Positions 26,194 through 45,609 of a stretch of DNA of 64,000 bases are shown here, in pieces (the first letter of the stretch is position 1; each line of letters opens with the position of its first letter). Location of the stretch: positions 62,001 to 126,000 of the forward strand of contig JAQTQX010000006.1 of NCBI GenBank assembly GCA_028712075.1, in the 5' to 3' direction. The position numbers and the translations under genes were made by a program. The notes under the pieces were generated by a model, which did not search any database, was not told where the DNA came from, and saw only the letters and a program-made list of their open reading frames with translations. Source of the stretch: Desulfuromonadaceae bacterium. GTDB lineage: Bacteria; Desulfobacterota; Desulfuromonadia; Geobacterales; Pseudopelobacteraceae.

Positions 26194-26676
26194 ATGGCAG
26201 AGACCATTGAAACAACCCAGTACCTGACATTCAATCTTGCTGACGAAGTGTTCGCGGTTGATGTCGGGAGAGTGCGGGAGATTCTGGAGATCACCAGTAT
26301 CACCAAGGTTCCTCAGACCCCCGATTTCATGCGCGGGGTCATCAACCTGCGCGGCAGCGTGGTTCCTGTCATTGACCTGCGGCTCAAGTTCGGCATGAAC
26401 GAAACCGAGCGCACCGTCAACACCTGCATCATTGTTGTCGAAGTGGCGATGGAGGGCGAAACCGTGGTGATTGGCTCCCTGGCAGATTCAGTGCAGGAAG
26501 TTATCGAGATGGAGCCGCAGCAGATCGAGGCGGCTCCGCATATCGGCACGCATCTCAACACAGACTTTATCAAGGGGATGGGCAAGCATGACAGCCGATT
26601 TGTCATGATCCTTGATATTGACAAAATTTTTTCCGGCGCAGAATTGGAAGCGGTAACCGGCGGTCAGTCAGCCTGA
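26194..26676 (+). CDS. cheW: CheW-type coupling protein (copy 1)
   Basis: The 160-residue SH3-like adaptor links MCP tips to CheA. Typical motifs are QYLTFNLADEVFAVDV, VREILEI and GVINLRGSVVPVIDLR. The ATG at 26194 follows AAGGAGACGAGG; the reading frame runs open further upstream, but that part lies in repeat DNA. It is closely similar to the second CheW at 28417, and the two flank an MCP, suggesting a cheW-MCP duplication. First gene of the chemosensory cluster. Confidence 0.95.
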   Translation: MAETIETTQYLTFNLADEVFAVDVGRVREILEITSITKVPQTPDFMRGVINLRGSVVPVIDLRLKFGMNETERTVNTCIIVVEVAMEGETVVIGSLADSVQEVIEMEPQQIEAAPHIGTHLNTDFIKGMGKHDSRFVMILDIDKIFSGAELEAVTGGQSA

Positions 26677-26718
26677 AATGGCGTAGAAATACAAATCCAT
26701 GTACGGGAGAAAATTACA

Positions 26719-28407
26719 ATGAGATGGTACAGCAACCTTAGAATCAGCGTGAAACTCTTATCGGCTTTTATCGTGGTGGCAATCATTTCCGGGATCATCG
26801 GCGCTGTCGGCGTCGTAGAACTCAGAAAAATGGATGCTGCCGGCACAAAAATGTATGAAAAAATTACCGTTCCAATTGGTCAGTTACAGGATGTTGCAAC
26901 GGCGTTTCAGAGAATACGGGTTAACACTCGCGATCTTATGCTGGCTGAAAACAAGAGTGACGAGGCAAAAGCCCTGGCAACTATAAAGGAGTTGCGCGGA
27001 GTTATTGACAAAGCCGCAGGAGAATTTGAAAAAACGATCCTTACTGATGACGGCAGGAAACTCTTTGAAACTTTTTCAAAGAGCCGCGCCGGCTACGCAG
27101 TCGTTCTTGAGAAGTTGACTGCTTTGTGTGAACAGAATCAGGAAAAAGAGGCGATTGCCTACATGAAAACACCCGCGGCGTTTCAGGCCGCTGTTGATGA
27201 AAACAACGCCATTGACGGCCTGGTTGATTCCAAGCTGAAACAGGCCAAGTTGACGGAAGAAGAGAATGGTGAAATTGCCAAGGCGGCGACACGGCTGATG
27301 ATCGGTTTTGCGGTTGCCGGTGTTATCCTGGCCATCCTGTTCGGTATCATTATTTCCAACATAATCAGCAACCCGCTCCGCAAGGGTGTTGTCTTTGCCC
27401 AGGCGGTTGCCGCCGGTGACCTGACCCAGAAAATAGATCTGGACCAGAAGGATGAAATCGGCCAGTTGGCCGCAGCCCTTAACGAAATGGTGGCCAAACT
27501 GAGCAGCATCGTCGGTGAAGTCATGGGCGCTTCCGACAACGTTGCCTCCGGCAGCCAGGAACTTTCTGCCACGGCCCAGCAGATGAGCCAGGGGGCTACT
27601 GAACAGGCCGCTTCTGCCGAAGAAATCTCCTCATCCATGGAAGAGATGGCCTCCAGTATCCGCCAGAATACCGATAACGCCATGCAGACCGAAAAAATCT
27701 CCATCAAGAGTTCCGTCGATGCCAAAGATGGTGGCAAAGCAGTGGTTGAAACCGTTGCCGCCATGAAGGAGATCGCCACCAAGATCGGCATTATCGAAGA
27801 GATCGCCCGCCAGACCAACCTGTTGGCCCTGAACGCTGCCATTGAAGCGGCCCGTGCCGGTGAGCACGGCAAAGGTTTTGCCGTGGTTGCCTCAGAAGTG
27901 CGCAAGCTTGCCGAACGGAGCCAATCGGCCGCCGGTGAGATATCGAGCCTTTCCAGCCGCAGTGTGGCGATAGCCGAGCAGGCGGGCGAGATGCTGACCA
28001 AGATGGTACCGGATATTCAGCGCACCGCCGAACTGGTGCAGGAAATCACCGCATCCAGCAAAGAGCAGGATAGCGGCGCCGAACAGATCAACAAGGCCAT
28101 TCAGCAGCTTGACCAGGTCATCCAGCAGAACGCCTCCGCCTCCGAAGAGATGGCCTCCACCTCTGAAGAACTTTCCAGTCAGGCAGAACAGCTGCAGCAT
28201 TCCATCAGCTTCTTCGATATCGGGAATGCGGGACGGCGTGCGGTATCAGCTGCTACGGCCCGCAAACCTGCCCACAAGGTTCAGATCGCCCACGCCAGTA
28301 AAAGTGCGGCGCAGCAGCCGGCAAAGCACACCCCAGGCGGCGGCGTAAACCTGCAGCTTGGCCAGGCCGGTCCGGATCATCTGGATGATGAGTTTGAGAA
28401 ATTTTAG
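26719..28407 (+). CDS. Methyl-accepting chemotaxis protein with C-terminal tether
   Basis: The 562-residue receptor has TM1 (~10-32), a four-helix-bundle-like periplasmic domain (~33-190), TM2 (~192-214), HAMP, and a long signalling coiled coil with tip [21 protein letters not shown] flexible, Ala/Lys/Gln-rich tail (~500-545) ends in LDDEFEKF; the last five residues EFEKF fit the x-[HFYW]-x-x-[HFYW] rule for CheR/CheB docking pentapeptides. The cytoplasmic half is nearly identical to the MCP at 32001 while the sensor halves differ, pointing to duplication or gene conversion. Confidence 0.95.
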
Positions 28408-28416
28408 GGGGCGACC

Positions 28417-28908
28417 ATGAGCATATCAATAATCACGGAAACAACCCAATACCTGACCTTCAAACTCGACGAGGAAGTTTTTGCGCTTGATGTGGCCAAG
28501 GTGCGGGAAATTCTTGAATACACCACTGTTACCAAAGTGCCACAGACCCCCGATTTCATGCGCGGGGTCATCAACCTGCGGGGGAGCGTGGTGCCGGTGA
28601 TCGACTTGCGCCTTAAATTCGGCATGAGCGCAACAGAGCAGAGCGTCAACACCTGCATCATCGTAACAGAGGTGGATATGGAGGGTGAAACCATCCTGCT
28701 GGGAGTCCTGGCCGATTCGGTGCAGGAGGTGAACGAGATGGAACCTGCCCAGATCGAGGCCGCGCCACACATAGGGACACGGCTCAACACAGATTTCATC
28801 AAGGGAATGGGGAAACAGGACGGCAACTTTGTGATGATTCTGGATATTGACCGGGTTTTTACCTCGATTGACCTTTCAAGCTTCAACGAGTTGGATCTGG
28901 CTGCTTGA
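28417..28908 (+). CDS. cheW: CheW-type coupling protein (copy 2)
   Basis: The 163-residue CheW is a paralogue of the copy at 26194, sharing QYLTFKLDEEVFALDV, PQTPDFMRGVINLRGSVV and the C-terminal HIGTRLNTDFIKGMGK segment. The start at 28417 has AGGGGG upstream, 9 bases after the MCP stop. Two CheW copies beside two near-identical MCP signalling domains suggest they build the same CheA array. Confidence 0.95.
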   Translation: MSISIITETTQYLTFKLDEEVFALDVAKVREILEYTTVTKVPQTPDFMRGVINLRGSVVPVIDLRLKFGMSATEQSVNTCIIVTEVDMEGETILLGVLADSVQEVNEMEPAQIEAAPHIGTRLNTDFIKGMGKQDGNFVMILDIDRVFTSIDLSSFNELDLAA

Positions 28909-28950
28909 AAAAACACAAGTACGATTGCTGACAACCATCTGGAGACTACC

Positions 28951-29913
28951 ATGGCAACGTCGGAAATTTTATTGGAAACAGGCACCAACGAGCTGGAAAT
29001 ACTTGAGTTTTATATTGATGAAACCAGTGCTGCAGGGGAACAGGAACGGGTCTATTTCGGCATGAACGTCGCGAAGGTGATGCAGGTGATCGAGAATCCG
29101 AACCTTGCCCCCTGTGATTATGCACAGCATCCATCGTTTCTGGGAGTCATTCCGCTTCGAGAGCATATTCTGCCGATAATCGACCTGAGCGTCTGGTTGG
29201 GCATGGATCGAACGGACAGCAATTTTGACCTGATCATTGCCACCGAATTCAGCCAGGCGGTCAACGGCTTTCTGGTCTCCGGTGTTACAGAGATTCTCCG
29301 GGTCGGCTGGGGTCAGGTCAAACCGCCCGGCACGTTTTTGTCGAAATTTGCCAAAGCAGCCATTATCGGCACGGTTGAGCATGACAACCGCTTCATCCAA
29401 CTGCTTGACATGGAGAGCATCATTTCCGATCTCGATCCAAATATGATGAAGGATGCCGGGATCAGCGAAGTGCGTGCCAAACAGCAGTATCCGGTACTCA
29501 TCGCCGATGATTCCCAGACCATACTCGACATGGTCACCCGGAATCTGCGAGCAGCCAACTTCAGGCCGATTACCGCTTCGAACGGCCAGGAAGCATGGGA
29601 TTTGCTCTGCAAACTTCGAGAACGGGCAGAGAACGAACATCTGGATATCCATGATCTGGTGCGTATCGTGATCTCCGATATCGAGATGCCGATGCTTGAC
29701 GGATTTACCCTGACCAAGCGTATCAAGGAAGATCCGCAGCTGGGCAAAATTCCGGTCATACTCTATTCATCCATCATCACTGACGAACTTCGCCACAAGG
29801 GTGAATTCGTCAAGGCTGACGATCAGGTGTCAAAGCCGGAACTGCATGAAATGGCCCGGCGGGCGATTGATCTTATCGAAGCGGCGGCAGCGGCAGCGAC
29901 GGTAACTGTATGA
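28951..29913 (+). CDS. cheV: CheV-type CheW-receiver fusion (copy 1)
   Basis: The 320-residue protein joins a CheW-like adaptor (~1-165; FYIDETS, GVIPLREHILPIIDL) to a receiver (~180-310; LIADDSQTILDMV, Asp in VISDIEMPMLDG, conserved Lys in QVSKPELH). CheV docks at receptor arrays and is thought to tune CheA by taking phosphate through its receiver. Its stop overlaps the start of the Hpt gene by four bases (ATGA). Confidence 0.95.
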   Translation: MATSEILLETGTNELEILEFYIDETSAAGEQERVYFGMNVAKVMQVIENPNLAPCDYAQHPSFLGVIPLREHILPIIDLSVWLGMDRTDSNFDLIIATEFSQAVNGFLVSGVTEILRVGWGQVKPPGTFLSKFAKAAIIGTVEHDNRFIQLLDMESIISDLDPNMMKDAGISEVRAKQQYPVLIADDSQTILDMVTRNLRAANFRPITASNGQEAWDLLCKLRERAENEHLDIHDLVRIVISDIEMPMLDGFTLTKRIKEDPQLGKIPVILYSSIITDELRHKGEFVKADDQVSKPELHEMARRAIDLIEAAAAAATVTV

Positions 29914-30314
29914 AAAAAATCGACCATGAATCGCTTGCAACGTTTGCCGAGGAATCCGCTCTTCGCCTGGCCAGGATAGCTGACAAGCTGGAGCTTCTTG
30001 CCGGCACAGGACCGGTAGATATGGAGCTGCTGCACGGTATCTTCAGGGACACCCATTCCCTGAAAAGTGCGGCAAACCTGCTCACACTCGGGACGGTGGA
30101 ACAGATCGCCCATAAGCTCGAAGACATACTGGAGTCGCTCCGCAGCGGGCAGGATCTGCCCGATGAACAACTCATCGACATCCTGAGTGCCGGTTACACC
30201 CGGATTGAGCAGCTTTTGAAAAACACGCATGTGTTGCCGTTGATAGACCCGGACAAAGAAATAGCCGCCATTGACGCCAGGCTTCTTGCCCGGCGCAGTA
30301 CAGGAAGGAGATAG
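29910..30314 (+). CDS. Stand-alone Hpt phosphotransfer protein
   Basis: The 134-residue protein is mostly one helical histidine-phosphotransfer domain. The Hpt motif RDTHSLKSAANLL supplies the phospho-His, followed by IAHKLEDILE. There is no kinase or receiver. It is translationally coupled to cheV, so a phosphorelay between Hpt and the CheV or other receivers of the cluster is plausible; CheA carries its own P1 Hpt, so this is an extra node. Partner choice is inference. Confidence 0.85.
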   Translation: MKKIDHESLATFAEESALRLARIADKLELLAGTGPVDMELLHGIFRDTHSLKSAANLLTLGTVEQIAHKLEDILESLRSGQDLPDEQLIDILSAGYTRIEQLLKNTHVLPLIDPDKEIAAIDARLLARRSTGRR

Positions 30315-30317
30315 GTT

Positions 30318-30722
30318 ATGGAGGCTGTTTCTTCATCTGTCGTAACAAAGCGTCTCAACGGTGACTGGACCATTACGGGAGTCGTACAACAGGTGACATG
30401 CCTGACGGAGTCACGTCATGGCGACTCCCGGAGCGGCGGTACTGTATCCATCGATTGCAGCGGCATAGAGAAAATCGACCTGAGCGGCATCGAGCTGCTT
30501 GGTACGTGGCTTCATTGCATCCAACTGAGTGGCCGGCGTCCTGAACTTCTCAACATACCTGATCACATGCGTGAAACCGGGAAGTATCAGGGTAGCAACG
30601 AATTGAAAAAGTGGAGTGGCCGCATGGCAAGTATTCAGTTGCCTGCGGGAACCACGGTACCCGGCAATAAGCGAGAAGCAAATTTAAAGGAGGATTTGCA
30701 TTATGAAACTGGAAGAAATTAA
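30318..30722 (+). CDS. STAS-domain protein
   Basis: The 134-residue protein contains a STAS fold segment (~40-90: VSIDCSGIEKIDLSGIELLG), with Ser in DLSG at the position phosphorylated in SpoIIAA-type anti-sigma antagonists. It starts 3 bases after the Hpt gene. The last ~35 residues have no family look, and the stop lies 20 bases inside the next small gene, so a late frameshift or relaxed C-terminus is possible. STAS proteins in chemotaxis operons are seen in related genomes; their role is unclear. Confidence 0.7.
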   Translation: MEAVSSSVVTKRLNGDWTITGVVQQVTCLTESRHGDSRSGGTVSIDCSGIEKIDLSGIELLGTWLHCIQLSGRRPELLNIPDHMRETGKYQGSNELKKWSGRMASIQLPAGTTVPGNKREANLKEDLHYETGRN

Positions 30723-30882
30723 AGCAATCGCGCAACAGTACGGCATCAAGGTTGGCAAGATGAAGAAGTCGGAGCTGGTGCGGGCCATCCAGAGCGCCGA
30801 GGGAAATATGCAATGCTTTGAAACAGGCAACGTGGCAACCTGCGGGCAAACCGGCTGCAGGTGGTTTGGAATCTGTTCATAG
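30703..30882 (+). CDS. SAP-like Cys-containing microprotein (59 aa)
   Basis: This short gene overlaps the STAS gene end by 20 bases in another frame and has an excellent AAAGGAGG site 9 bases before the ATG. The first ~35 residues form a helix-hinge-helix of SAP type (IKAIAQQYGIKVGKMKKSEL, then VRAIQSAEGN). The rest holds four Cys (QCF, ATCGQTGCRW, ICS end), possibly a small metal site. Similar SAP-plus-Cys miniproteins occur in Geobacter-like genomes; function unknown. SAP domains often bind nucleic acids, which would be odd inside a chemosensory operon. Confidence 0.72.
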   Translation: MKLEEIKAIAQQYGIKVGKMKKSELVRAIQSAEGNMQCFETGNVATCGQTGCRWFGICS

Positions 30883-30919
30883 TGACTTTTTGAATCAACC
30901 ATGTGAGAGGAGAAAAATT

Positions 30920-31840
30920 ATGAAGATGTTCAACTGTATGAAGTTCGGATCACGTCTGGTATCGGGGATTGCACTTTCTGCGCTGATCGCATTGGGTGGA
31001 CGCGTGGAGCTGGGACGTGCGGAAAGCGGCGTTGACAAGCGGATCGAAGAGTTCAAGGCGGGGATGCATAAGGATGCCGCGCATGGTGAAGAGGGGAAGG
31101 CAGCGACCGCTGCTCATGGCGAAGAGAAGAAACCGGCGGCACATACTCCGGCCAAAAAAGAGAAGCATGCTGCGCCAAAGGCGGCTGTTCACAAAGCCCC
31201 GGCGGCACACGCTGCTGCGGGTGGCCATGGTGGCCATGCCGTCGCCATGGACGCCGATGAAGCGCTCAAACAGCTCATGGAAGGAAACAGGCGGTATGCA
31301 TCAGGCCAGGCAAAAGGCCCCAACCGGTCGGCTGTCAGACGCAGTGAGCTTGCCGGGGGGCAAAACCCTATTGCGGTGGTCGTCAGTTGTTCCGACTCGC
31401 GGGTACCGCCCGAGCTGCTGTTCGACCAGGGATTCGGCGATATATTCGCGATACGGATTGCCGGAAACATCGTTGATGCCAATGCGCTGGGGAGTATCGA
31501 GTACGCGGTGGACCATCTCGGCACAAAACTCATTGTCGTACTGGGGCATGAGCGCTGCGGCGCAGTCACCGCTGCCCTGCAAGGGGGAGTGGCGCCGGGT
31601 AACATCAAGAGCATCGTAGACGGCATACAACCGGCCATTGAAAAGGGGAAAGCCCGCTATACCGGGCACGGCGAGCTGCTTGATTCCTGTATCCTGGCGA
31701 ACGTCAAAATGGTTGCGGAAAAAATCCGCAAGAGCCCGCCGATCCTTTCGGAAAAAGTCGAGGACGGCATGCTGAAGGTTGTCGGCGCCTACTACGACCT
31801 GGATAGCGGTGCGGTGAACATGACCTACATGCCAAATTGA
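30920..31840 (+). CDS. Exported beta-class carbonic anhydrase with His/Ala/Lys linker
   Basis: The 306-residue protein starts at ATG 30920 (GAGGAG upstream); an open frame back to 30818 overlaps the previous gene. A signal peptide (~1-35, [12 protein letters not shown] core) is followed by a ~75-residue His/Ala/Lys/Pro-rich linker and then a beta-carbonic anhydrase domain: [11 protein letters not shown] and LGHERCGAV supply the zinc Cys-Asp-His-Cys ligands. It should hydrate CO2 in the periplasm. Its place between signalling genes and directly before an MCP raises the idea of CO2/bicarbonate sensing, which is inference only. Confidence 0.9.
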
Positions 31841-31847
31841 CGGTTTC

Positions 31848-31960
31848 GTAGGGGCGTATCCTTGTGATCGCCCTGGTGGAGTTGCCGATCCCATTGCCAC
31901 TGCCACCCAAAGGCGGGCGAACACGAGGAAAGGCGGGCGAACACAAGGTATCGCCCCTAC
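31848..31960. mobile_element. MITE-like element with 26-bp imperfect terminal inverted repeats
   Basis: The left arm 31848-31873 and right arm 31935-31960 are inverted copies over 26 bases with four mismatches (left begins GTAGGGGCGTATC, right ends GTATCGCCCCTAC). Inside the right part AGGCGGGCGAACACRAGG is tandemly repeated at 31911 and 31931 (period 20). No ORF of its own. It fills the space between the carbonic anhydrase gene and the next MCP. Confidence 0.65.
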
Positions 31961-32000
31961 AGGCGACACAAATTACAATAAACAACCCAAGGAGATCGCC

Positions 32001-33746
32001 ATGAACATCATGAAAAATATGAAAATAGGCACCAAGATTCTCGGCCTTGTCGGCATTCTGATCATCATGATGGGTGCCCTGGCCGGATACGGCATACTGA
32101 AAATGAAGAGCGTCGGCGATGAAATAAAGTCGCTGGATGAACAGGAAATCCCCCTTTCGGCAATGATCAACGAAGCCGCCGGAATGCAGAAAGAACAGGA
32201 GGTCCTGTTCCAGAAAACCGTTCGCCTGGGGATCACCAATCAGCATGAGGAGCTGAAGAAAACTGCGGAGGAGTTCGATAAAGTGGCGAAAGAGGCGGAC
32301 GTGCTGCTGACGAAGTGTGATGCCATCGTGGAGAAGTCACTCAAGGAGACAGCCGGAGACGCGGCAGCCCAGAAGGAACTTAAGGAAGTAAGCGAGCATC
32401 TGAAAGAGGTGGAGAATGAATACAAGGGCTTTGATAAAGAAGCCGACGAGGTGTTTACCCTGCTCGAAGAGGGAAAACTGGGTGCGGCGGCAGCCCTTGA
32501 GGAAAAGGTGGAGAAAGAAGGAGCAACGCTCGACGCCGCTCTCAGTGTCTTTGTTAAATTAATCGACAAGAACGTTGACGAGACGACCAAAAAGATCGAG
32601 GAGGATGAGGCGCTGGCGATCAAGATGATGGCAATATTCACCGTAGTAGCGCTGTTTCTTGGCTTTGGCATCGGGATTTTTGTTACCCGCGGCATCACGC
32701 GTCCCATCAATGAAGCGCTCGGTGTTGCCAATTCCCTATCGCAGGGGGATCTGACCATATCGGTCGAATCAAACTCCAGGGACGAAACCGGCCAGATGAT
32801 GGCGGCCCTGAGTAATATGGTTGAAAAACTCAAACAGGTGGTCGGTGACGTGATAGGCGCTACCAACAACGTCGCCTCGGGAAGCCAGGAACTGTCTGCC
32901 ACTGCCCAGCAGATGTCTCAGGGGGCAACCGAGCAGGCCGCCAGCGTCGAGGAGATATCCTCCTCGATGGAAGAGATGGCCTCCAGCATCAAACAGAATG
33001 CCGACAACTCCAGCCAGACAGAAAAAATCGCCATCAAGAGCGCAGTCGATGCCAAAGATGGCGGCAACTCCGTCACCGAAACCGTTGCGGCCATGAAGGA
33101 GATCGCCACCAAGATCTCGATCATCGAAGAGATCGCCCGCCAGACCAACCTGCTGGCGCTGAACGCCGCCATCGAGGCGGCCCGGGCCGGAGAACACGGC
33201 AAAGGTTTTGCCGTGGTAGCCAGTGAAGTCAGAAAACTGGCCGAGCGGAGCCAGACCGCGGCCGGCGAAATCAGCACGCTCTCGTCACGCAGCGTCCAGG
33301 TGGCCGAAACCGCCGGTGAAATGCTGAACAAGATGGTGCCGGACATCCAGAAGACCGCCGAACTGGTGCAGGAGATCAGCGCTTCCAGCCGTGAACAGGA
33401 TAGCGGCGCCGAACAGATCAGCAAGGCTGTGCAGCAGTTGGACACGGTCATCCAGCAGAACGCCTCGGCCTCGGAAGAGATGGCTTCCACCTCCGAGGAG
33501 CTTGCCAGCCAGGCAGACCTGCTGAAAGACTCGATCAGCTTCTTCCGGGTAGAGAGTGGAGGCTCCCGGCAGACGACGGCACGCGCGGCGCACGTTCCGC
33601 AGCACAAGGCCCAGGTGGCCCATATCGGCCACGGTCATAAAGATGCGGAAGCGACAGAAAAGAAAAAGGGGAGCAGCAAAGGCGTTCACCTCCAGCTTGG
33701 CCAGGCCGGTCCGGATCATCTGGATGACGAGTTTGAAAAGTACTGA
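32001..33746 (+). CDS. Methyl-accepting chemotaxis protein with C-terminal tether (second copy)
   Basis: The 581-residue receptor has TM1 (~12-32), a highly charged helical periplasmic domain (~33-205, Glu/Lys-rich coiled-coil style), TM2 (~208-230), HAMP and a signalling domain nearly identical to that of the MCP at 26719 (tip [20 protein letters not shown]). A His/Lys-rich flexible tail ends [13 protein letters not shown] fits the CheR/CheB docking pentapeptide rule. It follows an exported carbonic anhydrase gene across a MITE-like element. Confidence 0.95.
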
Positions 33747-33814: not shown

Positions 33815-34189
33815 ATGAAAAAAACGTGTGATAATAAAAACTCGGTTCCACCTTCAGATATTTCACAGACACTGGCCGCTCTGGCGGGCGGCATGGCTGA
33901 TGATTTCAATAATATTCTGACGGTTGTTCTGGGAGCCTGTTCTCTGATCGATGTGGACGATCCGAGGAATGCCGAATTGTTACAGTACGTGGCGCTGATC
34001 CGAACTTCTGCGGAGCGGGCGGCCACTCTATCAAACGAGTTGGTGCATGCTTGTGCGGAGAAAAATATGCCCCTTTCGCCGAATGTGAATACCAATTTAT
34101 CTACAGCACGTGACAAAGTAAAAAATGATGATAGAGTATCTTCCACACCCACTCCCCTTCCGACCTCTCCAGTGAAAGGGGAGGTGTAA
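33815..34189 (+). CDS. Truncated histidine-kinase dimerisation domain with His-to-Asp change
   Basis: The 124-residue frame matches only the HisKA-type dimerisation domain of hybrid kinases: GGMADDFNNILTVVLG where relatives read GG[IM]AHDFNN, so the phospho-accepting His is Asp. No ATPase domain follows; the last ~16 residues (TPTPLPTSPVKGEV) are encoded by an intergenic-type repeat that supplies the stop. It is therefore either a decaying kinase cut by a repeat or a dimerisation-domain decoy. No clear ribosome binding site precedes the ATG at 33815. Confidence 0.55.
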   Translation: MKKTCDNKNSVPPSDISQTLAALAGGMADDFNNILTVVLGACSLIDVDDPRNAELLQYVALIRTSAERAATLSNELVHACAEKNMPLSPNVNTNLSTARDKVKNDDRVSSTPTPLPTSPVKGEV

Positions 34190-37717: not shown

Positions 37718-38062
37718 ATGCCACTCAACAGTTCAGTCGGAGAAAACGGTGCTATTAAGATAACCAGTGGCGAACGTTTGACCATTGAAAACGCCGCAGA
37801 ATTTTCACGGATCACAACGGAAGCGCTGGCTGCCTCGAATTCGGTATTTATTGATTTTGATCCGGCGGTGGAAATTGATATTACCGGCATGCAGATTCTT
37901 TGTTCTGCCTGCAAGAGTTCTGCGCAGTCCGGCAAAACATTTTCATTTCAGGGTCCGCGCCCCCCACATTTAACCGAATTGATAACCGCCTGCGGTGCTG
38001 AACGACATGCGACATGCAAGCATAATAATGATTCTACCTGTATCTGGTTTGGAGGTGCGTAA
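37718..38062 (+). CDS. STAS-domain protein (second)
   Basis: The 114-residue protein is a single STAS domain: VFIDFDPAVEIDITGMQILC has Thr in DITG where SpoIIAA has its phosphorylated Ser. AAGGAG precedes the ATG. It lies 11 bases after the MCP-like gene and 3 bases before cheY, so it is a stable part of the operon. Partner kinase or phosphatase is unknown. Confidence 0.82.
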   Translation: MPLNSSVGENGAIKITSGERLTIENAAEFSRITTEALAASNSVFIDFDPAVEIDITGMQILCSACKSSAQSGKTFSFQGPRPPHLTELITACGAERHATCKHNNDSTCIWFGGA

Positions 38063-38065: not shown

Positions 38066-38431
38066 ATGGCAAAAATAATCATGACAGCCGATGATTCGGC
38101 TAGTGTCCGGCAGATGGTGGCATTTACCCTCAAGCAGAACGGCTATGATGTGGTAGAGGCGGTTGACGGGCGAGATGCCCTTAACAAGCTGAATTCCCAG
38201 AAGGTCGATATGTTGCTGACTGACCTTAATATGCCCAACATGGATGGCATCGGTCTTATCAAAGGGGTTCGAGCCGAAACCCTGAACAAGTTTATCCCGA
38301 TCGTCATGCTGACAACCGAATCGCAGGATTCACGCAAGGCCGAGGGGAAATCCGCCGGCGCCACCGGCTGGATCGTGAAACCCTTCAAACCGGAACAGTT
38401 GATAGCGGTGATTAAGAAAGTGCTGGGGTGA
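38066..38431 (+). CDS. cheY: Chemotaxis response regulator CheY
   Basis: The 121-residue single receiver has the acidic pair TADDSASVRQM, phospho-Asp 53 in LLTDLNMPNMDG, Thr in MLTTES and Lys in WIVKPFKPEQL. SVRQM and NMPNMDG are typical of CheY proteins that act with CheA. It lies 4 bases upstream of cheA, so it is the best candidate for the diffusible output of this pathway; whether the target is the flagellar motor is not shown. Confidence 0.93.
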   Translation: MAKIIMTADDSASVRQMVAFTLKQNGYDVVEAVDGRDALNKLNSQKVDMLLTDLNMPNMDGIGLIKGVRAETLNKFIPIVMLTTESQDSRKAEGKSAGATGWIVKPFKPEQLIAVIKKVLG

Positions 38432-38435: not shown

Positions 38436-40571
38436 ATGATGGAAGAAGCCATTGCAACATATCGTGAGGAAGCCGGTGAGCTGCTTGCCGAGCTGGAAAC
38501 CTCCCTGCTGGAGCTGGAGGAAACGCCCGATGACAATGATCTGATCAACCGGGTGTTCCGTGCCATGCACACCATCAAAGGATCCGGCGCCATGTTCGGA
38601 TTTGATGAAATTGCTATGTTCACCCATGAGGTTGAGACGGTTTTCGACATGGTGCGCAACGGCAAGATGACTGTTACCAAACGGCTGCTTGATCTGACCC
38701 TCAAATCACGTGACCATATTTCCTATCTGCTGGGTTGTCCTCTTGGTGAGGATGTTGATCGTAGTGAAGGAGACGAGATTATCGCCGGGCTGCGCCAGCT
38801 GGTGCCACAGCCCGACTTGCCGCAGAAAGGTTCTGATGTCGTCCCCGATGTTGCGCTCCCCAAGTTGTCAGATCAGGAACTGGCGAATGAAAACACCTGG
38901 CGTATTCGTTTTCGCCCCGCCCCGAACATCCTGTTATGCGGTACTAACCCGATTTCTCTCATCAATGAATTGCGTGCTCTCGGCACGGCCCATGTGGTGG
39001 CCCAGTTTGACGAGATACCACCACTTGACGGACTGACTCCGGAATCCTGTTACATTTACTGGGACATTATCCTGACGACCTCACGCGGTGAAGACGCGAT
39101 CAAGGATGTGTTCATTTTTGTTGAAGATGACTGTGACATCAAAATTGAACTGATCGACAGCAGCGGTTTGATTGATCGTGATGAAGGATATAAAAAGCTG
39201 GGCGACATCCTGGTCGAACGTGGCGATCTTTCTCCGGTCGAGATGAAAAAGGTGCTGCAACTGCAGAAACGTTTCGGTGAGCTGCTGGTGGAGCAGGGCA
39301 TTGTCTCGTCGGAGTTGGTGCAGTCAGCTCTGGTCGAACAGCAGCACGTCAAAAGCGTCCGCAAAGAGCGGAGTGAAGCGCCGCAGCAGCAGGAGGCAGC
39401 CGCCAGTATCAGGGTCCCGGCGGAACGGCTCGACCAACTGATCAACCTGGTTGGAGAAATGGTCACAGTGCAGGCGCATCTGTCACAGGTCTCCATGGCC
39501 GGGGGTGATACGACCTTTATTGCCATCTCCGAAGAGGTCGAGCGGCTGACCAATGAGCTGCGTGATACGGCCCTCAATATCCGCATGTTGCCGATCGGCA
39601 GTACCTTCAGCAAGTTCAAGCGCCTGGTGCGCGATCTCTCAAGTGAGCTCGGCAAACAGATCGAGATGGAAACCTTCGGTGCCGAAACCGAGCTTGACAA
39701 AACTGTTATCGAAAAACTTAACGATCCGCTCGTCCATATCATTCGCAACAGCATCGACCATGGCGTTGAAATGCCCGATGTGCGGCGAGCGGCTGGTAAA
39801 CCGGTCGTCGGTACGGTGTACCTCGGGGCCGAGCACTCCGGTGATTCTGTTTTGATAACCATCCGTGATGACGGCGCAGGTCTTGACCGTGACCGTATCA
39901 AGGCCAAAGCTGTGGAGCGCGGACTGATTGCCGCGACAGCAGATCTGGCGGACAGGGATATTTATGCCATGATCTTTGCCCCCGGTTTTTCTACGGCTGA
40001 TAAGATCACGAGCGTGTCCGGGCGCGGTGTTGGCATGGATGTGGTGAAGCGTGGTATCGAGTCGTTGCGGGGCAGCATCACCGTTGACAGCAAGCAGGGT
40101 GAAGGAACCGTCATTACGCTCAAGATCCCGTTGACGCTCGCAATTATCGACAGCCTGCTGGTGAAGATCGGTATTGATCACTATGTGCTGCCGCTGGCGG
40201 CGATTGAGGAGTGTATCGAATTGACCAGGGAGGATGTCACTAATTCCCATGGTCGTAACCTTGCAAATGTGCGTGGTGTCATTATTCCATACATTCCGCT
40301 GCGGGAGCATTTTGCTATTACTGACCGGCGTCCTGACATCGAGCAGATTGTCATTGCAGATCTGCACGGTACCAAAGTCGGTTTTGTGGTTGATCATGTG
40401 GTCGGTGAACACCAGACCGTTATCAAATCGCTTGGCAAGATGTATCGCGATGTGAAAGGCGTTTCCGGCGCCACCATTCTTGGCGACGGTACCGTAGCGC
40501 TGATTCTGGACATGGGGGTATTGCTGAAGTCTGTTGAACAGCTGGAGCATAACTCGTCACAGATGCAGTAG
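38436..40571 (+). CDS. cheA: Chemotaxis histidine kinase CheA
   Basis: The 711-residue core kinase has P1 with phospho-His 45 (AMHTIKGSGAMFGF), a P2-like region (~150-260), a linker, the P3 dimerisation domain (~325-390; [17 protein letters not shown]), P4 ATPase (~395-570; HIIRNSIDHGVEMP, DDGAGLD, GRGVGMDVV) and the CheW-like P5 (~575-705; LLVKIGIDHYVLPL). All catalytic boxes look intact. It receives signals from MCPs through CheW/CheV and phosphorylates CheY and CheB. It is the only complete CheA in the window. Confidence 0.97.
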   Translation: MMEEAIATYREEAGELLAELETSLLELEETPDDNDLINRVFRAMHTIKGSGAMFGFDEIAMFTHEVETVFDMVRNGKMTVTKRLLDLTLKSRDHISYLLGCPLGEDVDRSEGDEIIAGLRQLVPQPDLPQKGSDVVPDVALPKLSDQELANENTWRIRFRPAPNILLCGTNPISLINELRALGTAHVVAQFDEIPPLDGLTPESCYIYWDIILTTSRGEDAIKDVFIFVEDDCDIKIELIDSSGLIDRDEGYKKLGDILVERGDLSPVEMKKVLQLQKRFGELLVEQGIVSSELVQSALVEQQHVKSVRKERSEAPQQQEAAASIRVPAERLDQLINLVGEMVTVQAHLSQVSMAGGDTTFIAISEEVERLTNELRDTALNIRMLPIGSTFSKFKRLVRDLSSELGKQIEMETFGAETELDKTVIEKLNDPLVHIIRNSIDHGVEMPDVRRAAGKPVVGTVYLGAEHSGDSVLITIRDDGAGLDRDRIKAKAVERGLIAATADLADRDIYAMIFAPGFSTADKITSVSGRGVGMDVVKRGIESLRGSITVDSKQGEGTVITLKIPLTLAIIDSLLVKIGIDHYVLPLAAIEECIELTREDVTNSHGRNLANVRGVIIPYIPLREHFAITDRRPDIEQIVIADLHGTKVGFVVDHVVGEHQTVIKSLGKMYRDVKGVSGATILGDGTVALILDMGVLLKSVEQLEHNSSQMQ

Positions 40572-40574: not shown

Positions 40575-40639
40575 AGGGTCGAGGGACAAGGGACGTGAAA
40601 AAAACAACTCCTTTTGAATCCAGCTTGACCCTTGACCCT
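40575..40639. repeat. Intergenic inverted repeat between cheA and cheR
   Basis: AGGGTCGAGGGACAAG (40575-40590) is inverted as CTTGACCCTTGACCCT (40624-40639), 14 of 16 positions pairing, around an A+T-rich loop. Each arm is a degenerate tandem of AAGGGTC units. It fits the same spacer class as 19381-19432, 41554-41636 and 44151-44210. Confidence 0.7.
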
Positions 40640-40676
40640 GAGGTTTGCCTCTGACTTACTATGAAAGGAGCTTGAG

Positions 40677-41549
40677 GTGACCAGACACCAGGATAACAGC
40701 TCAAAGCCTCATCTTCCGGCAACTTTATCTGACCGGGAATTTCAACGGTTCAGTACATTTATTTACGATCACATAGGCATCAAGATGCCGCCCGCAAAGA
40801 AGACCATGCTCGAAGCGCGTCTGCAGAAGAGGCTCAAGGCCAACTCCATCCGTTCGTTCGAGGAGTACGGTGATTATGTCTTCAGCCAGGAGGGGCGGGC
40901 GACCGAACTGATCCATCTGATTGATGTCGTGACCACCAATAAAACTGATTTCTTTCGCGAGCCGGGACATTTTGACTATATGGTCAAGGTAGCGATTCCG
41001 AATATCGTCGAAGACCGAGAAAACCTTCTGCGCGAGCCGCTCCGGATATGGAGCGCAGGATGCTCGACGGGTGAAGAACCATATACGCTGACGATGGTTC
41101 TGTCCGAGTATGCCGTCGGCCGCCCGGGATTTCGGGTTGCCATCACTGCGTCCGATATCTGCACGGAAGTTCTCAAGATTGCTCATACCGCTATTTATCC
41201 CGAAGAACGCACCGATACCATTCCGCTCAATCTGAAAAAAAAGTACCTGACGAGAAGCCGTGAAAAGTCGCGGGCGCTCATACGCATTTCCCCTTCACTC
41301 CGATCACTGGTGTCATTTAAGCGCATCAATTTTATGGATGACGATTTTGGAATTTCGGAAAAAATGGACATCATTTTCTGCCGCAACGTTGTGATTTACT
41401 TTGACAAGTTGACCCAGCAAGCATTGATGAGGAAATTCCACAAACAGTTGCGCCCCGGCGGGTACCTCTTTATCGGACATTCGGAAACGCTGAGCGGACT
41501 TGATGTCGATTTTAAAGCGGTCGCCTCTACGGTGTACAGGAAAGAGTAA
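40677..41549 (+). CDS. cheR: Chemoreceptor methyltransferase CheR
   Basis: The 290-residue SAM-dependent enzyme methylates receptor glutamates. It has a helical N-terminal domain (~12-75), the SAM site (WSAGCSTGEEPYTLTM) and the C-terminal DIIFCRNVVIYFD and LFIGHSE motifs. It starts at GTG 40677 behind AAAGGAG. Because three receptor-like proteins in this cluster carry aromatic C-terminal pentapeptides, this CheR may be of the tether-dependent type; its beta-subdomain loop should be checked. Confidence 0.96.
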   Translation: MTRHQDNSSKPHLPATLSDREFQRFSTFIYDHIGIKMPPAKKTMLEARLQKRLKANSIRSFEEYGDYVFSQEGRATELIHLIDVVTTNKTDFFREPGHFDYMVKVAIPNIVEDRENLLREPLRIWSAGCSTGEEPYTLTMVLSEYAVGRPGFRVAITASDICTEVLKIAHTAIYPEERTDTIPLNLKKKYLTRSREKSRALIRISPSLRSLVSFKRINFMDDDFGISEKMDIIFCRNVVIYFDKLTQQALMRKFHKQLRPGGYLFIGHSETLSGLDVDFKAVASTVYRKE

Positions 41550-41553
41550 AAAT

Positions 41554-41636
41554 GCAGGGTCAGGGTGCAGGGTACAGGGGACAGTAGCTTCAAAAGCTTT
41601 TTGTTTTTTGTCCTTTGTCCTCTGTCCTCTGTCCCC
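41554..41636. repeat. Intergenic degenerate tandem/inverted repeat between cheR and cheD
   Basis: The left arm is a run of GGGTGCAGGGTACAGGGG-type units (41554-41585), the right arm a run of TCCTCTGTCC units (41604-41636); they pair imperfectly around a loop with CAAAAGCTTTTTG. The right arm occupies the position where the cheD ribosome binding site should be. Confidence 0.7.
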
Positions 41637-41641
41637 GTCTT

Positions 41642-42154
41642 ATGAAAGACCTCATCGTCTCACATAGTCACACTATTTACCTGAAGCCGGGCGAGGTGCT
41701 GGTTTCCCGGAAACCGGTGCTGGTGTCGACTGTTCTCGGTTCGTGTGTGGCGGTTACATTGTATTCGCCTTCATGCGGTTTCGGGGCAATCTGCCACGCC
41801 ATGCTGCCTGAGAGTAGTGGGCGCAATAAGGATCTGCGTTATGTCGATACTGCGTTGAAGCACATATACGAAAAAATTGCCAAATATGGCAACGTACTCG
41901 ATCTGGAGGTCAAGCTGTTCGGCGGTGCTCAGCTGTTGGGTGGTGTCGCAAGCGGTTTTGAAAAAGCTTCCATCGGAGACCAGAATATTGCAAAAGCTGT
42001 AGAGGTATTGTCATCGCTCGGATTTACCCTTGCTGCCCAGGATACCGGCGGCATGCGTGGCCGGAAGTTGTTTTTCTGTACGCGAAGTGGAGATGTGTTT
42101 GTGCGTTATATGCGTTCAAAAAAACTATCAACTGACGAGGATATCGCTTTATGA
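41642..42154 (+). CDS. cheD: Receptor glutamine deamidase CheD (copy 1)
   Basis: The 170-residue amidase converts receptor Gln to Glu and can bind CheC/CheY in other bacteria. The catalytic Cys and His are in [13 protein letters not shown] and AICHAMLP, with the conserved Thr in STVLG. The start is taken as ATG 41642; an in-frame alternative at 41615 lies inside the repeat. No Shine-Dalgarno sequence is visible because the spacer repeat runs to the start codon. The stop overlaps cheB by four bases. Confidence 0.95.
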
Positions 42155-43221
42155 GTAAAATAAAGGTTCTGATAATAGATGATTCTGCCCTGGTCCGTCA
42201 GACTTTGTGCGACATTCTCAACTCTGATCCGGAGATTGAAGTCGTTGGCAGTGCAGCTGATCCAATTCTGGCAGCTGAGAGGATGAGAACGATTATCCCC
42301 GACGTCATTACGCTTGATGTTGAGATGCCGCGCATGGACGGGATCACGTTTCTGCAAAAACTGATGAGCCAACATCCGATCCCGGTCGTCATGTGTTCCA
42401 GTCTGGCTGAAAGCGGCAGCGAAACCGCGCTCAAAGCCCTTGAATACGGTGCAGTTGATATCATCACCAAGCCGAAAATGGGCACCAAACAGTTTATCGA
42501 AGAATCCAGAACGCGCATCTGTGATGCCATAAAAGGCGCCGCTGCCGCCCGCCTCGGCCCTCTGAAGGCGATGCGGACCATGAAAGAGGTGTCACCGAAA
42601 TATTCAGCTGATGTTATCATGGAAAAGCCCAATTCAAAGGCGATGCTCCTTACCACGGAAAAAATTGTCGCGGTTGGCGCTTCCACCGGCGGTACCGAGG
42701 CGCTGAAGGTGTTTCTGGAGATGCTGCCTGAAGATGCCCCCGGTATCGTTATCGTGCAGCATATGCCGGAAAACTTCACGGCGGCTTTTGCCAAACGCCT
42801 CGACTCCATCTGCCGGGTAACCGTCAAGGAAGCCCAGGATAATGATACCGTGGTGCGGGGTCGGGCACTGATCGCCCCCGGAAATCATCACCTGCTGCTG
42901 AAACGGAGCGGCGCCCGCTACTACGTTGAAATCAAGGACGGTCCGCTTGTATCGCGCCACCGCCCGTCCGTTGATGTTCTGTTTCGCTCGGCGGCGCGTT
43001 ATGCCGGCAAGAACGCCGTTGGTGTTATCATGACCGGCATGGGGGATGATGGTGCCCATGGCATGAAGGAGATGCACGACGCAGGGGCTGTTACCATCGC
43101 TCAGGACGAAGCGACCTGTGTTGTGTACGGTATGCCGCATGAAGCGGTAAAACTCGGCGGCGTCAACAAAGTGATGCCGTTGCAGAACATTGCTTACGAA
43201 GTAGTGAGATTGTGCAACTGA
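42151..43221 (+). CDS. cheB: Receptor methylesterase CheB
   Basis: The 356-residue protein has a receiver (~1-125; [11 protein letters not shown], Asp in [12 protein letters not shown]) that gates the C-terminal esterase/deamidase (~168-356) with Ser in VGASTGG, His in VQHMPENF and Asp in GMGDDGA. It reverses CheR methylation. Four-base overlap with cheD couples their translation. The linker (~130-165) is of ordinary length. Confidence 0.97.
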
Positions 43222-43238
43222 ATCCAGGAGGTTCACCA

Positions 43239-44141
43239 ATGGCGTCATCACTTGACGAAGCACTGCAGCGATCCAACCTCTCCCAGTCAAACCAGATGGA
43301 GATGCTGACATTTCGCCTGACTGACAATCAGCTTTATGGCATCAACGTGTTTAAAATTATTGAAATTATCGAATGTCCCCGTCGGTTAGACCGGGTGCCC
43401 AATTCTCATCCGGCGGTTAAGGGGGTGCTCGATTTTCGCGGCACCCCCTTGACCGTTATCGACCTTTCCGAAGCGGTGGGGCTGCCGACCAAACGGTTTG
43501 ATGCCGAGCTGGCCTATATCATTATCTGCGAATATAACCGAAACTTGACGGCATTTATCGTCCATGCCCCGGACACGCTGTTGACGCGGAGTTGGCAGGA
43601 TATTCACAAGCCGGAAGGCGTCAATGCGCTCTCGCTTGTAGCAATTGCGTATGCAGACAGCGGTGAGGCGATCATGCTGCTGGACATCGAAACGATTTTG
43701 TCAGATGTCATCGGTATTGAGCGGGACCTTTCACATGTGGCTGCTACCGAGGGGGATGGCGGCGGTGTCGGGCGGCACGTGCTGGTCGTTGATGACTCAC
43801 GGACTGCAATTATGCTGCTCCAGTCAGTGCTGGACAAGATGGGTTTCACTAATACCCCCATGTCGTCCGCCGATCGGGCACTGGAATATCTGGCACGCGA
43901 ACATGGTCATGTTGATCTGGTCATATCCGATATCGAAATGCCCGGTATGGACGGCTTCACCTTTACCCGGACATTGCGGGATCATGTGGATTACAAACAT
44001 CTCAAGGTCATCCTGCACAGCTCAATGAGTAACCCTTCCAATCAGTTGAAAGCCGAACAGTCAGGGGCCAACAAGTTTGTTGCCAAGTTTGACCCTGATT
44101 CCCTTTCTTATGAAATTTCCAGTCTGTTAGAAGAGGGGTAA
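43239..44141 (+). CDS. cheV: CheV-type CheW-receiver fusion (copy 2)
   Basis: The 300-residue protein has a CheW-like half (~15-160; LTFRLTDNQLYGINV, GVLDFRGTPLTVIDL) and a receiver (~180-295; VLVVDDSRTAIML, Asp in VISDIEMPGMDG, Lys in NKFVAKFD). The ATG at 43239 follows AGGAGG; an upstream in-frame GTG at 43212 would cover that site and is rejected. It is clearly diverged from the first CheV (28951), so two CheV adaptors operate in one cluster. Confidence 0.95.
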   Translation: MASSLDEALQRSNLSQSNQMEMLTFRLTDNQLYGINVFKIIEIIECPRRLDRVPNSHPAVKGVLDFRGTPLTVIDLSEAVGLPTKRFDAELAYIIICEYNRNLTAFIVHAPDTLLTRSWQDIHKPEGVNALSLVAIAYADSGEAIMLLDIETILSDVIGIERDLSHVAATEGDGGGVGRHVLVVDDSRTAIMLLQSVLDKMGFTNTPMSSADRALEYLAREHGHVDLVISDIEMPGMDGFTFTRTLRDHVDYKHLKVILHSSMSNPSNQLKAEQSGANKFVAKFDPDSLSYEISSLLEEG

Positions 44142-44150
44142 AAACAGCAT

Positions 44151-44210
44151 GCAGGGAACAGGGTGCAGAACAATGAAAAGCTTTTTATTTTACTATCTCC
44201 TGTCCCCTGC
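44151..44210. repeat. Intergenic inverted repeat between cheV and a kinase-like gene
   Basis: GCAGGGAACAGG (44151-44162) is inverted as CCTGTCCCCTGC (44199-44210), 11 of 12 positions pairing. The loop carries GAAAAGCTTTTTATTTT, strikingly like the loop of 41554-41636. Confidence 0.7.
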
Positions 44211-44227
44211 CTTTAAGAGGTGTTCCC

Positions 44228-45127
44228 ATGAACATGACTGATGATGCTTTGATAGAAGAACTGTCAAAGCGTTTTGCCGTGAGCCGAAAGGCATTTTCAG
44301 ATTTAAGTGTGGTCAACCGCACACTACAGGAGATGAATGAGCGTTTGACACGCTCCGAATCGCTCAAAAGTAATTTCCTCTCAAACATCCGTAATGAGAT
44401 CAATAATCCGCTGAATGTAATCATGGGGCTGGCCGGCCAGCTTGTCCAGATTGCCACCGGTAATGAAGATGTTACGTCTCTGGCATCATTGATTGGTGCA
44501 GAAGCAAACCATCTTGATTTTCAGCTGCGCAATATTTTTATAGCAGCCGAGCTCGAAGCCGGGGAAGTCAGCCCGCGCTGTGTAAAGGTGCATATTGAAT
44601 CAGCCTTGCGTGACCTGGTAGACCTGTTTTTGCACACTGCGGCAAAAAAAAATGTCTCGCTTGATTTAGCACTGCCACCCGCCGAAGATGCGTCCATTGT
44701 CGTAATTGATTTTGAAAAATTTCAGATTATAGTCTCAAATTTACTGGCAAACGCAATTGAATATAGCGTCGATGGCGGTGCCGTCGAAATTTCTTTCTCC
44801 GTTGGCGGGGATGGTTGTTTGCAGGTTTTTGTGCAAGACCATGGCGTTGGCATCGCTGCTGAAGACCAGAAACGCATATTCGACCGTTTTGTACAGATGG
44901 AGACCGGCACCACACGCTCTCATCTGGGACATGGCCTGGGACTCAGCATCAGCAAGGCGCTTGTTGATCTTATGCAGGGAACCATCACCCTCGTCAGTGC
45001 GCGCGGTGAAGGGACCTGCTTTACCGTTACTCTTCCCCCCTGCTCACTCATGGAAGACAATGATTCGTTTTCCGAGGCCGGTAATCTGTTCCTGTTTGAC
45101 GACATGAGTGAGGCACAGCCGCGGTGA
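44228..45127 (+). CDS. Histidine-kinase-like protein lacking the phospho-accepting His
   Basis: The 299-residue protein has a short coiled coil, a HisKA-like dimerisation segment and a complete-looking HATPase domain (SNLLANAIEYS; VQDHGVGI; GHGLGLSISKAL). In the H-box the usual SHE[IL]RTPLN is RNEINNPLN: the His codon is replaced by AAT (Asn) and flanking residues also differ. It could bind ATP but not autophosphorylate at the normal site. It may work as a pseudokinase, a heterodimer partner or a phosphatase. Its stop overlaps the second cheD (GTGA). Confidence 0.8.
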   Translation: MNMTDDALIEELSKRFAVSRKAFSDLSVVNRTLQEMNERLTRSESLKSNFLSNIRNEINNPLNVIMGLAGQLVQIATGNEDVTSLASLIGAEANHLDFQLRNIFIAAELEAGEVSPRCVKVHIESALRDLVDLFLHTAAKKNVSLDLALPPAEDASIVVIDFEKFQIIVSNLLANAIEYSVDGGAVEISFSVGGDGCLQVFVQDHGVGIAAEDQKRIFDRFVQMETGTTRSHLGHGLGLSISKALVDLMQGTITLVSARGEGTCFTVTLPPCSLMEDNDSFSEAGNLFLFDDMSEAQPR

Positions 45128-45609
45128 CCGCTGATGAGCCGCTCGACAGACATTTCCTGTATCCCGGCACCATCTTTGCTGAACCTGGTGAATATCTTAT
45201 CAGCACGGTGCTCGGGTCATGCGTGGCTGTTTGTATGTGGAACAAGGTTGCGCATGTTGGCGGCATGAACCATATCATGCTCCCCTACTGGAACGGCGAA
45301 GGGCTGGCGACGCCAAAGTACGGCAATATTGCCATGGAAAAACTGCTCGGCAAGATGCTGGCCATCGGCGGGCGACGCGAGAATCTGGTGGCCAAAGTGT
45401 TTGGCGGAGCGAATGTATCCGGCACCGGCCTGGAAATGTATATGATCGGCGACCGCAACACCACTCTTGTCTCTGATATGCTTGAAGAGTTCCGGATTCC
45501 GGTTGTTGCCAAAGATATTGGCGGACGGGTTGGGAGAAAAATAATCATGAACAGTTCAACCGGTGTGGTTCTTGTCAGCAAGGGGAGAAGAGCCGCCCCG
45601 GATGAATAG
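45124..45609 (+). CDS. cheD: Receptor glutamine deamidase CheD (copy 2)
   Basis: The 161-residue second CheD has catalytic Cys in [13 protein letters not shown] and His in GGMNHIMLP, plus KVFGGANV. It starts at GTG 45124, overlapping the stop of the kinase-like gene, with only a weak purine-rich site. It is well diverged from copy 1. It closes the chemosensory cluster; a good sigma-70 promoter for the LPS genes follows. Confidence 0.93.
   Translation: MTADEPLDRHFLYPGTIFAEPGEYLISTVLGSCVAVCMWNKVAHVGGMNHIMLPYWNGEGLATPKYGNIAMEKLLGKMLAIGGRRENLVAKVFGGANVSGTGLEMYMIGDRNTTLVSDMLEEFRIPVVAKDIGGRVGRKIIMNSSTGVVLVSKGRRAAPDE

Follow-up and report, generated by a model that had tools for sequence, protein, structure and literature searches.

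A dead histidine kinase encoded directly before CheD wherever it is found in relatives suggests an undescribed tuning of chemical sensing

A 64,000-nucleotide stretch of the genome of a Desulfuromonadaceae bacterium (assembly GCA_028712075.1, contig JAQTQX010000006.1, positions 62,001 to 126,000; hereafter the window) contains a block of chemosensory genes at 26194–45609 that ends with the gene for a pseudo-histidine kinase, here called pHK, and the gene for the second of two CheD proteins, CheD2. The pHK protein has a predicted histidine-kinase fold in which asparagine takes the place of the phosphorylated histidine (phospho-His) and in which the nucleotide boxes are kept, and wherever its gene is found in relatives it is located right before a cheD gene, an arrangement that points to an undescribed means of tuning chemical sensing. 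The block that surrounds this pair consists of three layers, a conserved core, two conserved pseudokinases, and a satellite cassette, and is not one system. The two genes at the centre of this analysis are the following.

44228–45127, + strand: pHK, a HisKA-HATPase pseudokinase with Asn for phospho-His (FLSNIRNEINNPLN), intact ATP boxes, and a disordered tail with NLFLF
45124–45609, + strand: cheD2, the next gene after pHK, with a 4-base overlap

The pseudokinase pHK and its pairing with CheD

Two samples were used, 141 genomes of the order and, for a profile search, 395 genomes of the phylum. The pHK gene is present in 51 of the 141 order genomes at 52 places (55 rows minus three repeats), and among the matches listed for the phylum there are 15 places with E-values of 4.6e-88 or lower, compared with at least 9.7e-60 for the rest. 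Nine of these 15 are new, one from a genome of the same class and eight from other classes, so that 61 places (52 from the order and nine from the phylum) could be compared. The phospho-His region of HisKA kinases follows the consensus FLxNxSHExRTPLN, and 15 kinases with lower scores that were fetched from the same search as a control (L178–L192) agree with it; all of them have the histidine, and they read FL[AS]N[VMI]SHELRTPLN where pHK reads FLSNIRNEINNPLN. The asparagine at the phospho-His position is found in 61/61 pHK places, as are a glutamate at +1 and the key N-, G1-, F-, and G2-box residues, and the residue at +4 is Asn in 59 places and Asp in two. Receivers dock on the DHp stretch around the histidine in HisKA kinases, and in pHK the invariant columns around the lost histidine are F50, L51, S52, N53, I54, N56, E57, I58, and P61. 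Within the genus, the ratio of nonsynonymous to synonymous differences (pN/pS) is 0.22 for pHK and 0.18 for cheD2, which indicates purifying selection, with synonymous sites near saturation.

The AlphaFold2 model of pHK adopts a kinase fold (mean predicted local distance difference test score 79) with the last 23 residues disordered, and a Foldseek search with this model places DivL (4q20) first and HK853 next. Only HisKA and HATPase-type domains were detected in the Pfam scan of pHK, with no PAS or CheC domain, and of the 25 NCBIfam families listed (out of 82 that match) none has a model above its cut-off. A role as part of a defence system was rejected because PADLOC gives only weak ATPase-domain matches. 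The disordered tail of pHK contains NLFLF, which is conserved with minor changes across most of the order and varies in L156–L158 and in the nine phylum places (NVFLF, NEFFF, AEFF, and the like). These twelve distant proteins end in Phe or Tyr, as do the tails of methyl-accepting chemotaxis proteins (MCPs), and NLFLF resembles the N[VFI][DE][LF]F end of a soluble MCP-like protein encoded in the block; both may bind one partner.

In all 61 pHK places the next matched gene, on the same strand, is a cheD homologue, and the gap between the two genes is −4 to +45 bases at 50 of the 52 order places, the other two depending on the choice of start. The position of the pair varies: it is at the cluster end in the genus of the window, between cheW and cheR or between cheR and cheB in other clusters, or alone, where it adjoins unrelated genes such as those for an EamA transporter or a polyferredoxin. 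Because it also stands alone among unrelated genes, the pHK-cheD2 pair forms a self-contained unit. A literature search that covered titles and the starts of abstracts, with most subscription journals outside its reach, found no paper on a pseudokinase paired with CheD.

A CheS-type core and its gene order

Frames were called and domains were assigned by Pfam scans across 26194–45609, where all genes lie on the + strand. The core of the block, the genes that recur on either side of it, and two genes upstream of the block are as follows.

22401–24119, + strand: NtrC-type sigma-54 activator, an upstream neighbour in many relatives and a possible member of the system
24243–25694, + strand: FapA-type protein, likewise an upstream neighbour in many relatives and a putative member of the system
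26194–26676, + strand: cheW1 (PF01584), present here in many relatives
26719–28407, + strand: mcp1, a membrane MCP (4HB_MCP_1, HAMP, MCPsignal) with the C-terminal EFEKF, a CheR-tether-like pentapeptide
35880–37706, + strand: soluble MCP-like protein whose two signalling tips are degenerate, with the conserved C-terminal N[VFI][DE][LF]F
37718–38062, + strand: STAS2, CheS-like by position, with an extra C-x7-C-x-W tail
38066–38431, + strand: cheY (Pfam), nearer to S. meliloti CheY1 than to CheY2
38436–40571, + strand: cheA (Pfam)
40677–41549, + strand: cheR (Pfam)
41615–42154, + strand: cheD1, with a TTG start as listed; a later ATG may be the true start
42151–43221, + strand: cheB (Pfam)
43239–44141, + strand: cheV2 (Pfam)

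A scan with CheA yielded 36 related loci, with flanks of up to 10 kb on either side of cheA, and the window proteins were mapped onto them. The order soluble MCP-like protein, STAS2, cheY, cheA is found in 30 of the 36; L036 has the order cheY-STAS2-cheA, and L027, L033, L042, L043, and L044 lack or cut cheA or the side upstream of it. STAS2 stays beside cheY and cheA in the distant loci L034, L035, L036, and L039 (Desulfobacterales, Proteobacteria, Nitrospirae, and Desulfonema). The genes for the NtrC-type regulator, FapA, CheW, and an MCP recur upstream in many of the 36 loci, and cheR, cheD1, and cheB lie downstream, to which many loci add cheV2, pHK, and cheD2. An MCP gene and/or cheW is located between cheA and cheR in many relatives; the window lacks both at this position. 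The soluble MCP-like protein has no strongly hydrophobic segment, and its N[VFI][DE][LF]F end is present in all 29 rows read.

A comparator for this core is the CheS-type che operon of Sinorhizobium meliloti and Agrobacterium, which is similar in containing a soluble receptor, a STAS protein, a CheY1-type CheY, and CheA, followed in S. meliloti by CheW, CheR, CheB, and CheD. The genes of S. meliloti CP090106 encode, in turn, a globin-coupled sensor, a 97-residue STAS protein, a receiver, CheA, CheW, CheR, CheB, a receiver, CheD, and a hypothetical protein, and from the description in part of PMC12654446 we have taken the two receivers as CheY1 and CheY2 and the last gene as CheT. A STAS-only protein between a soluble receptor and cheY-cheA is common to the window, the 30 relatives, and S. 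meliloti, and the window CheY is 45% identical to S. meliloti CheY1 compared with 30% to CheY2. The lone receiver of the block (described below) shares 27% identity with CheY1 and 26% with CheY2, and no CheY2-type output CheY was found in the cluster. The window differs from the CheS-type operon in that its soluble protein, which bears a pair of degenerate MCP tips, gives no Pfam globin match, and in adding the STAS2 cysteine tail, two CheV proteins, a second CheD, pHK, and a DHp-only protein, dhpD.

The resemblance of the core to the Sinorhizobium operon makes STAS2 most likely a CheS-like CheA accessory. Similar arrangements occur on plasmids, with the order MCP, CheY, STAS, CheA, MCP, CheW, MCP, CheR, CheD, CheB in Aeromonas and STAS, receiver, CheA in Methylosinus; two other plasmid regions that were fetched have no annotated STAS gene before cheA, though one has a hypothetical protein of 82 residues there. 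The STAS2 profile matches the Aeromonas STAS protein with an hhalign value of 97% (E 2e-10) and that of Methylosinus with 95%, compared with 10% for STAS1, the other STAS protein of the block. According to the parts of PMC12654446 and PMC4214558 consulted, CheS binds CheA and speeds the decay of CheY1~P, and STAS2 would in the same way bind CheA and speed the drain of phosphate through CheY. A C-x7-C-x-[WLF] tail is present in 31/31 STAS2 orthologues (L009–L041) and is not found in S. meliloti CheS or in the Methylosinus or Aeromonas STAS proteins; in an alignment of 20 sequences there are four invariant columns, with both cysteines among them, and we would guess that the tail is a metal or redox switch.

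The "E. coli-like Type 2" che clusters of Geobacter (Tran et al. 2008, PMC2577667) are alike in containing several MCPs with NWETF-like tails, several cheW genes, cheD, and non-che genes. The main text of that paper mentions no STAS or Hpt protein and the sections compared no pseudokinase, and its supplementary gene maps may show the order. The membrane MCPs of the window bear NWETF-like pentapeptide ends as well, EFEKF in mcp1 and EFEKY in mcp2.

With regard to transcription, pattern scans gave 19 sigma-70-like sites compared with 13.1 ± 2.9 in shuffles and 28 terminator-like sites compared with 19.3 ± 4.7, both somewhat more than in the shuffles, so that the block may contain internal promoters. 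The longest terminator-like stem on the + strand, at 25743–25784, lies before cheW1, and a shorter stem lies at 25970–25990. A sigma-54-like site with two mismatches precedes cheW1 at 26115–26130, and is one of 35 sigma-54-like sites in the window, a number at chance level (39 expected). Strict sigma-54 and sigma-28 expressions are absent upstream of 15 cheW copies in relatives, only part of which bears on cheW1 because three (L013, L027, and L029) lie downstream of cheA. Sigma-54 or sigma-28 promoters driving the block were therefore dropped as a candidate. The NtrC-type sigma-54 activator and FapA (22401–25694) recur upstream in many relatives, yet there is no convincing sigma-54 site before cheW1.

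The kinase remnant dhpD and the satellite cassette

An earlier note on this DNA, made by a model from the sequence alone, had listed two kinase-like proteins without the phospho-His. This is true, although the two are of unlike kinds, pHK being a DHp domain with a complete ATPase domain and His replaced by Asn, and the other, dhpD, being a DHp domain alone with His replaced by Asp. The latter precedes two further phosphorelay genes.

33815–34189, + strand: dhpD, a stand-alone DHp (HisKA) pseudokinase remnant, His to Asp, without an ATPase domain (HisKA 27.9 bits, cut-off 26.9)
34237–35454, + strand: receiver-HisKA-HATPase kinase with the His intact (Pfam)
35471–35869, + strand: lone receiver (Pfam)

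The 24 short orthologues of dhpD (L075–L098) all come from the genus of the window, of which 39 genomes were searched and 24 have one. In place of the His, 22 of them carry Asp, one Glu, and one Ala, the residue at +4 is Asn in 24/24, and the receiver-kinase follows within a set distance in 22, the exceptions being L098 (a short contig) and L093. The region that corresponds to dhpD is occupied by full, His-bearing kinases in L030, L031, L037, and L202, and in L201, from the same genus as L202, by a frame of 304 codons that is an Asp intermediate, having the Asp and a degenerate G2 box, CGMGF; other His-bearing kinases lie in the dhpD stretch of L017 and L032, which belong to the genus of the window. 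By its position and state, dhpD appears to be a former kinase reduced to its DHp domain, as a rule with an acidic residue for the His, and it probably still docks on the neighbouring receiver-kinase or the lone receiver. It is very improbable that the kinase remnants are decaying genes without function. Decay would fit the loss of the ATPase domain in dhpD, a tail that is nearly free to change (pN/pS 0.87), and a short orthologue in 24 of the 39 genus genomes, but the DHp core of dhpD has a pN/pS of 0.39 (253 pairs, 23 sequences), 24 genomes keep the short frame open, and the strong conservation of pHK extends to other classes of the phylum. A dispersed repeat at the 3' end of the window dhpD was considered and dropped, because the sequence there has only one weak further match in the genome.

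The remaining genes of the block form a satellite cassette, cheW2-cheV1-hpt-STAS1-microprotein-carbonic anhydrase-mcp2, at 28417–33746.

28417–28908, + strand: cheW2 (Pfam), the first gene of the cassette; L137 shares the neighbour set
28951–29913, + strand: cheV1 (Pfam)
29910–30314, + strand: hpt, a CheA-P1-like Hpt protein (PF01627; matches CheA P1) with the motif HSLKSAA
30318–30722, + strand: STAS1 (STAS_2 26.7 bits, under the Pfam cut-off of 29.2)
30703–30882, + strand: Rho_N/SAP-type microprotein of 59 residues with a C-x4-C-x-W tail
30920–31840, + strand: exported-looking beta-class carbonic anhydrase (PF00484) with a signal-like N-terminus
32001–33746, + strand: mcp2, a membrane MCP with an EFEKY end, the last cassette gene

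Every gene named in the earlier note corresponds to an open frame on the + strand and has the Pfam domains expected of it, STAS1 falling below the cut-off; the list omitted the two membrane MCPs (26719–28407 and 32001–33746). The overlaps that it reported among several genes are borne out, with 4 bases for cheV1/hpt, 20 for STAS1/microprotein, and 4 each for cheD1/cheB and pHK/cheD2, and the remaining intergenic gaps in the block are 3–160 bases. The microprotein described there as SAP-like is a real frame of 59 residues, although Rho_N passes its cut-off (28.3 bits, cut-off 24.9) and SAP does not (13.6 bits, cut-off 23.9). Five short matches to the gap before mcp2 lie in other parts of the genome.

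The same note proposed that the che and accessory genes form one chemosensory system with an added STAS/Hpt control layer, which would make a co-regulated system in which an Hpt protein and two STAS proteins control CheA. The genes do share a strand, with gaps that are short or overlapping, STAS2 is conserved, and comparison of gene order with relatives upholds the idea insofar as the core and the pseudokinases are conserved together. The same comparison gives no match to hpt, STAS1, or the microprotein in any of the 36 loci, and only one to the carbonic anhydrase (45%, in L021). In a search of 58 related whole genomes, a clear hpt orthologue (at least 79% identity) was found in three among the matches listed, the bacterium's own (100%), G031 (92%), and G011 (79%), the next matches being at most 38% identical and mostly in CheA-sized frames. 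Because the hpt orthologues are confined to 3/58 genomes and in the other two lie on other contigs than pHK, the added STAS/Hpt control layer is not conserved, Hpt and STAS1 are ruled out as conserved parts of the system, and a single system under Hpt and STAS control is quite improbable.

In the case of G031 (L135), the genes for cheV1 (97%), hpt, the microprotein, an MCP, and cheW are located at about 63 kb of the 230-kb contig C3, with no match to STAS1, and dhpD and pHK at 30–41 kb of the 228-kb contig C6, positions that put the cassette and pHK at least some 90 kb apart. In the case of G011 (L137), cheW, cheV1 (83%), hpt, STAS1 (53%), the microprotein, an MCP, and cheW are on contig C142 and pHK is on C149; with each of these contigs about 22 kb long, the two may still be near each other. 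Since the cassette sits away from the main cluster contig in these relatives, 28417–33746 is best read as a sensory cassette inserted into the main cluster in this lineage, insertion being the probable direction of the move. The exported-looking protein of the cassette differs in each genome, being the carbonic anhydrase in the window, a protein of 469 residues at the corresponding place between the microprotein and the MCP in G031 (L135 5716–7125), and a protein of 259 residues between cheW and cheV1 in G011 (L137 8005–8784). The 59-residue Rho_N/SAP microprotein with its C-x4-C-x-W tail again precedes MCP-cheW pairs in L135 and L137.

The genome as a whole is 4.15 Mb and 99.8% complete. A CheA query finds kinase cores at six places in it, that of the window included, and it holds one FliM, four CheX, and two CheC-family matches. 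The small and large subunits of a [NiFe] hydrogenase are encoded in the window flank at 10525–13362.

Possible roles of pHK and CheD2

The residues, the pairing, and the gene order are much surer than the mechanism. Our tentative reading of the whole, to which we give a little less than an even chance, is that of a CheS-type core with two pseudokinases and a cassette, in which pHK reads a phosphorylated receiver and gates CheD2. In this scheme pHK would no longer donate phosphate; its DHp face would bind CheY or a CheV in the phosphorylated receiver state while nucleotide occupies the ATPase domain, and pHK would pass the state of the receiver to CheD2 and so gate the deamidation or binding of receptors. 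The link from receiver to pHK to CheD2 is suggested by adjacency and analogy. In Bacillus, according to part of PMC3513319, CheC is believed to regulate CheD in response to CheY~P, and the pHK-CheD2 pair would be a counterpart of this CheC-to-CheD feedback built on a DivL-like reader. The two arrangements are alike in that a cheD gene is linked to one that encodes a likely phospho-receiver partner, and differ in that the partner here has the HisKA-HATPase histidine-kinase fold and not the CheC fold. DivL of Caulobacter, the top fold match, is alike in being a HisKA pseudokinase in which the His is replaced (by Tyr in DivL) and the kinase fold is kept, and as described in part of PMC4211667 it binds and stabilises DivK~P with neither kinase nor phosphatase activity; pHK differs in that Asn takes the place of the His, no PAS domain was found in it, its ATP-box residues are intact, and its gene adjoins cheD, and DivL acts on CckA.

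Several observations weigh against this reading. The invariant Glu at +1 of pHK is predicted by neither a pure reader nor a pure phosphatase. Two of the 54 order places with a cheD2-type gene (E 1.1e-43 or better in the order genomes) lack pHK (G042 and G052), the other 52 having it, and CheC-family matches occur in 117 of the 141 order genomes, that of the window included, so that pHK does not replace CheC genome-wide and that candidate role was ruled out. DivL is ahead of HK853 by only about 4-fold in E-value, and the fold match therefore does not single out DivL. Finally, the match of STAS2 to S. meliloti CheS, a single sequence, is weak (hhalign 43%, E 2.6e-4). The cheD2-type genes without pHK at L204 and L205 are from two genomes of another family.

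One alternative is that pHK, and dhpD with it, are dedicated receiver phosphatases that lost kinase activity with the His, kept phosphatase activity, and drain CheY~P or CheV~P. In HisKA kinases, according to sections of PMC3510030, Thr or Asn at +4 is needed only for phosphatase activity and Glu or Asp at +1 only for kinase activity, and the +4 Asn of 59/61 pHK and 24/24 dhpD proteins fits such a role, as does the lack of any CheZ, CheC, or CheX match in the Pfam scans of the cluster's proteins. However, pHK does not vary at the +1 Glu either, DivL, which by fold is the closest pseudokinase of solved structure, is no phosphatase and stabilises DivK~P, there are four CheX matches elsewhere in the genome, and the constant pairing with cheD would be left unexplained, and we regard this alternative as unlikely. 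Equally unlikely, in our view, is that pHK has CheD2 as its sole partner, in a nucleotide-sensing or structural role, its shape set by ATP or ADP without receiver input. The intact ATP-box residues in 61/61 places and a cheD gene as the one constant neighbour, also outside che clusters, are consistent with this, but the dense invariant DHp run surrounds the lost His, where receivers dock in HisKA kinases. Returning to the reading of pHK as a receiver reader, the more specific proposal that pHK and CheD form an undescribed adaptation module, in which a pseudo-histidine kinase reads receiver phosphorylation, and perhaps ATP, and gates the chemoreceptor deamidase, is a possibility that we consider somewhat more doubtful than the reading of the whole and more probable than either alternative.

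A pseudokinase can seldom be tied to a definite partner by sequence alone, and in this case the invariant Asn, the preserved ATP site, and the unchanging neighbour throughout the phylum sample reduce the question of what a dead histidine kinase does to a two-protein bench test. The dhpD series, from intact kinase through an Asp kinase with a damaged ATP box to a DHp domain alone, is a readable record of a kinase becoming a small accessory protein. If the proposal for pHK and CheD is true, these bacteria would have a further way to couple receptor adaptation to CheA output, and tallying CheC, CheX, or CheZ alone may miss signal-termination parts in them; the pHK-CheD pair would be a second evolutionary answer to the CheC-CheD loop, found inside che clusters or as a free two-gene unit.

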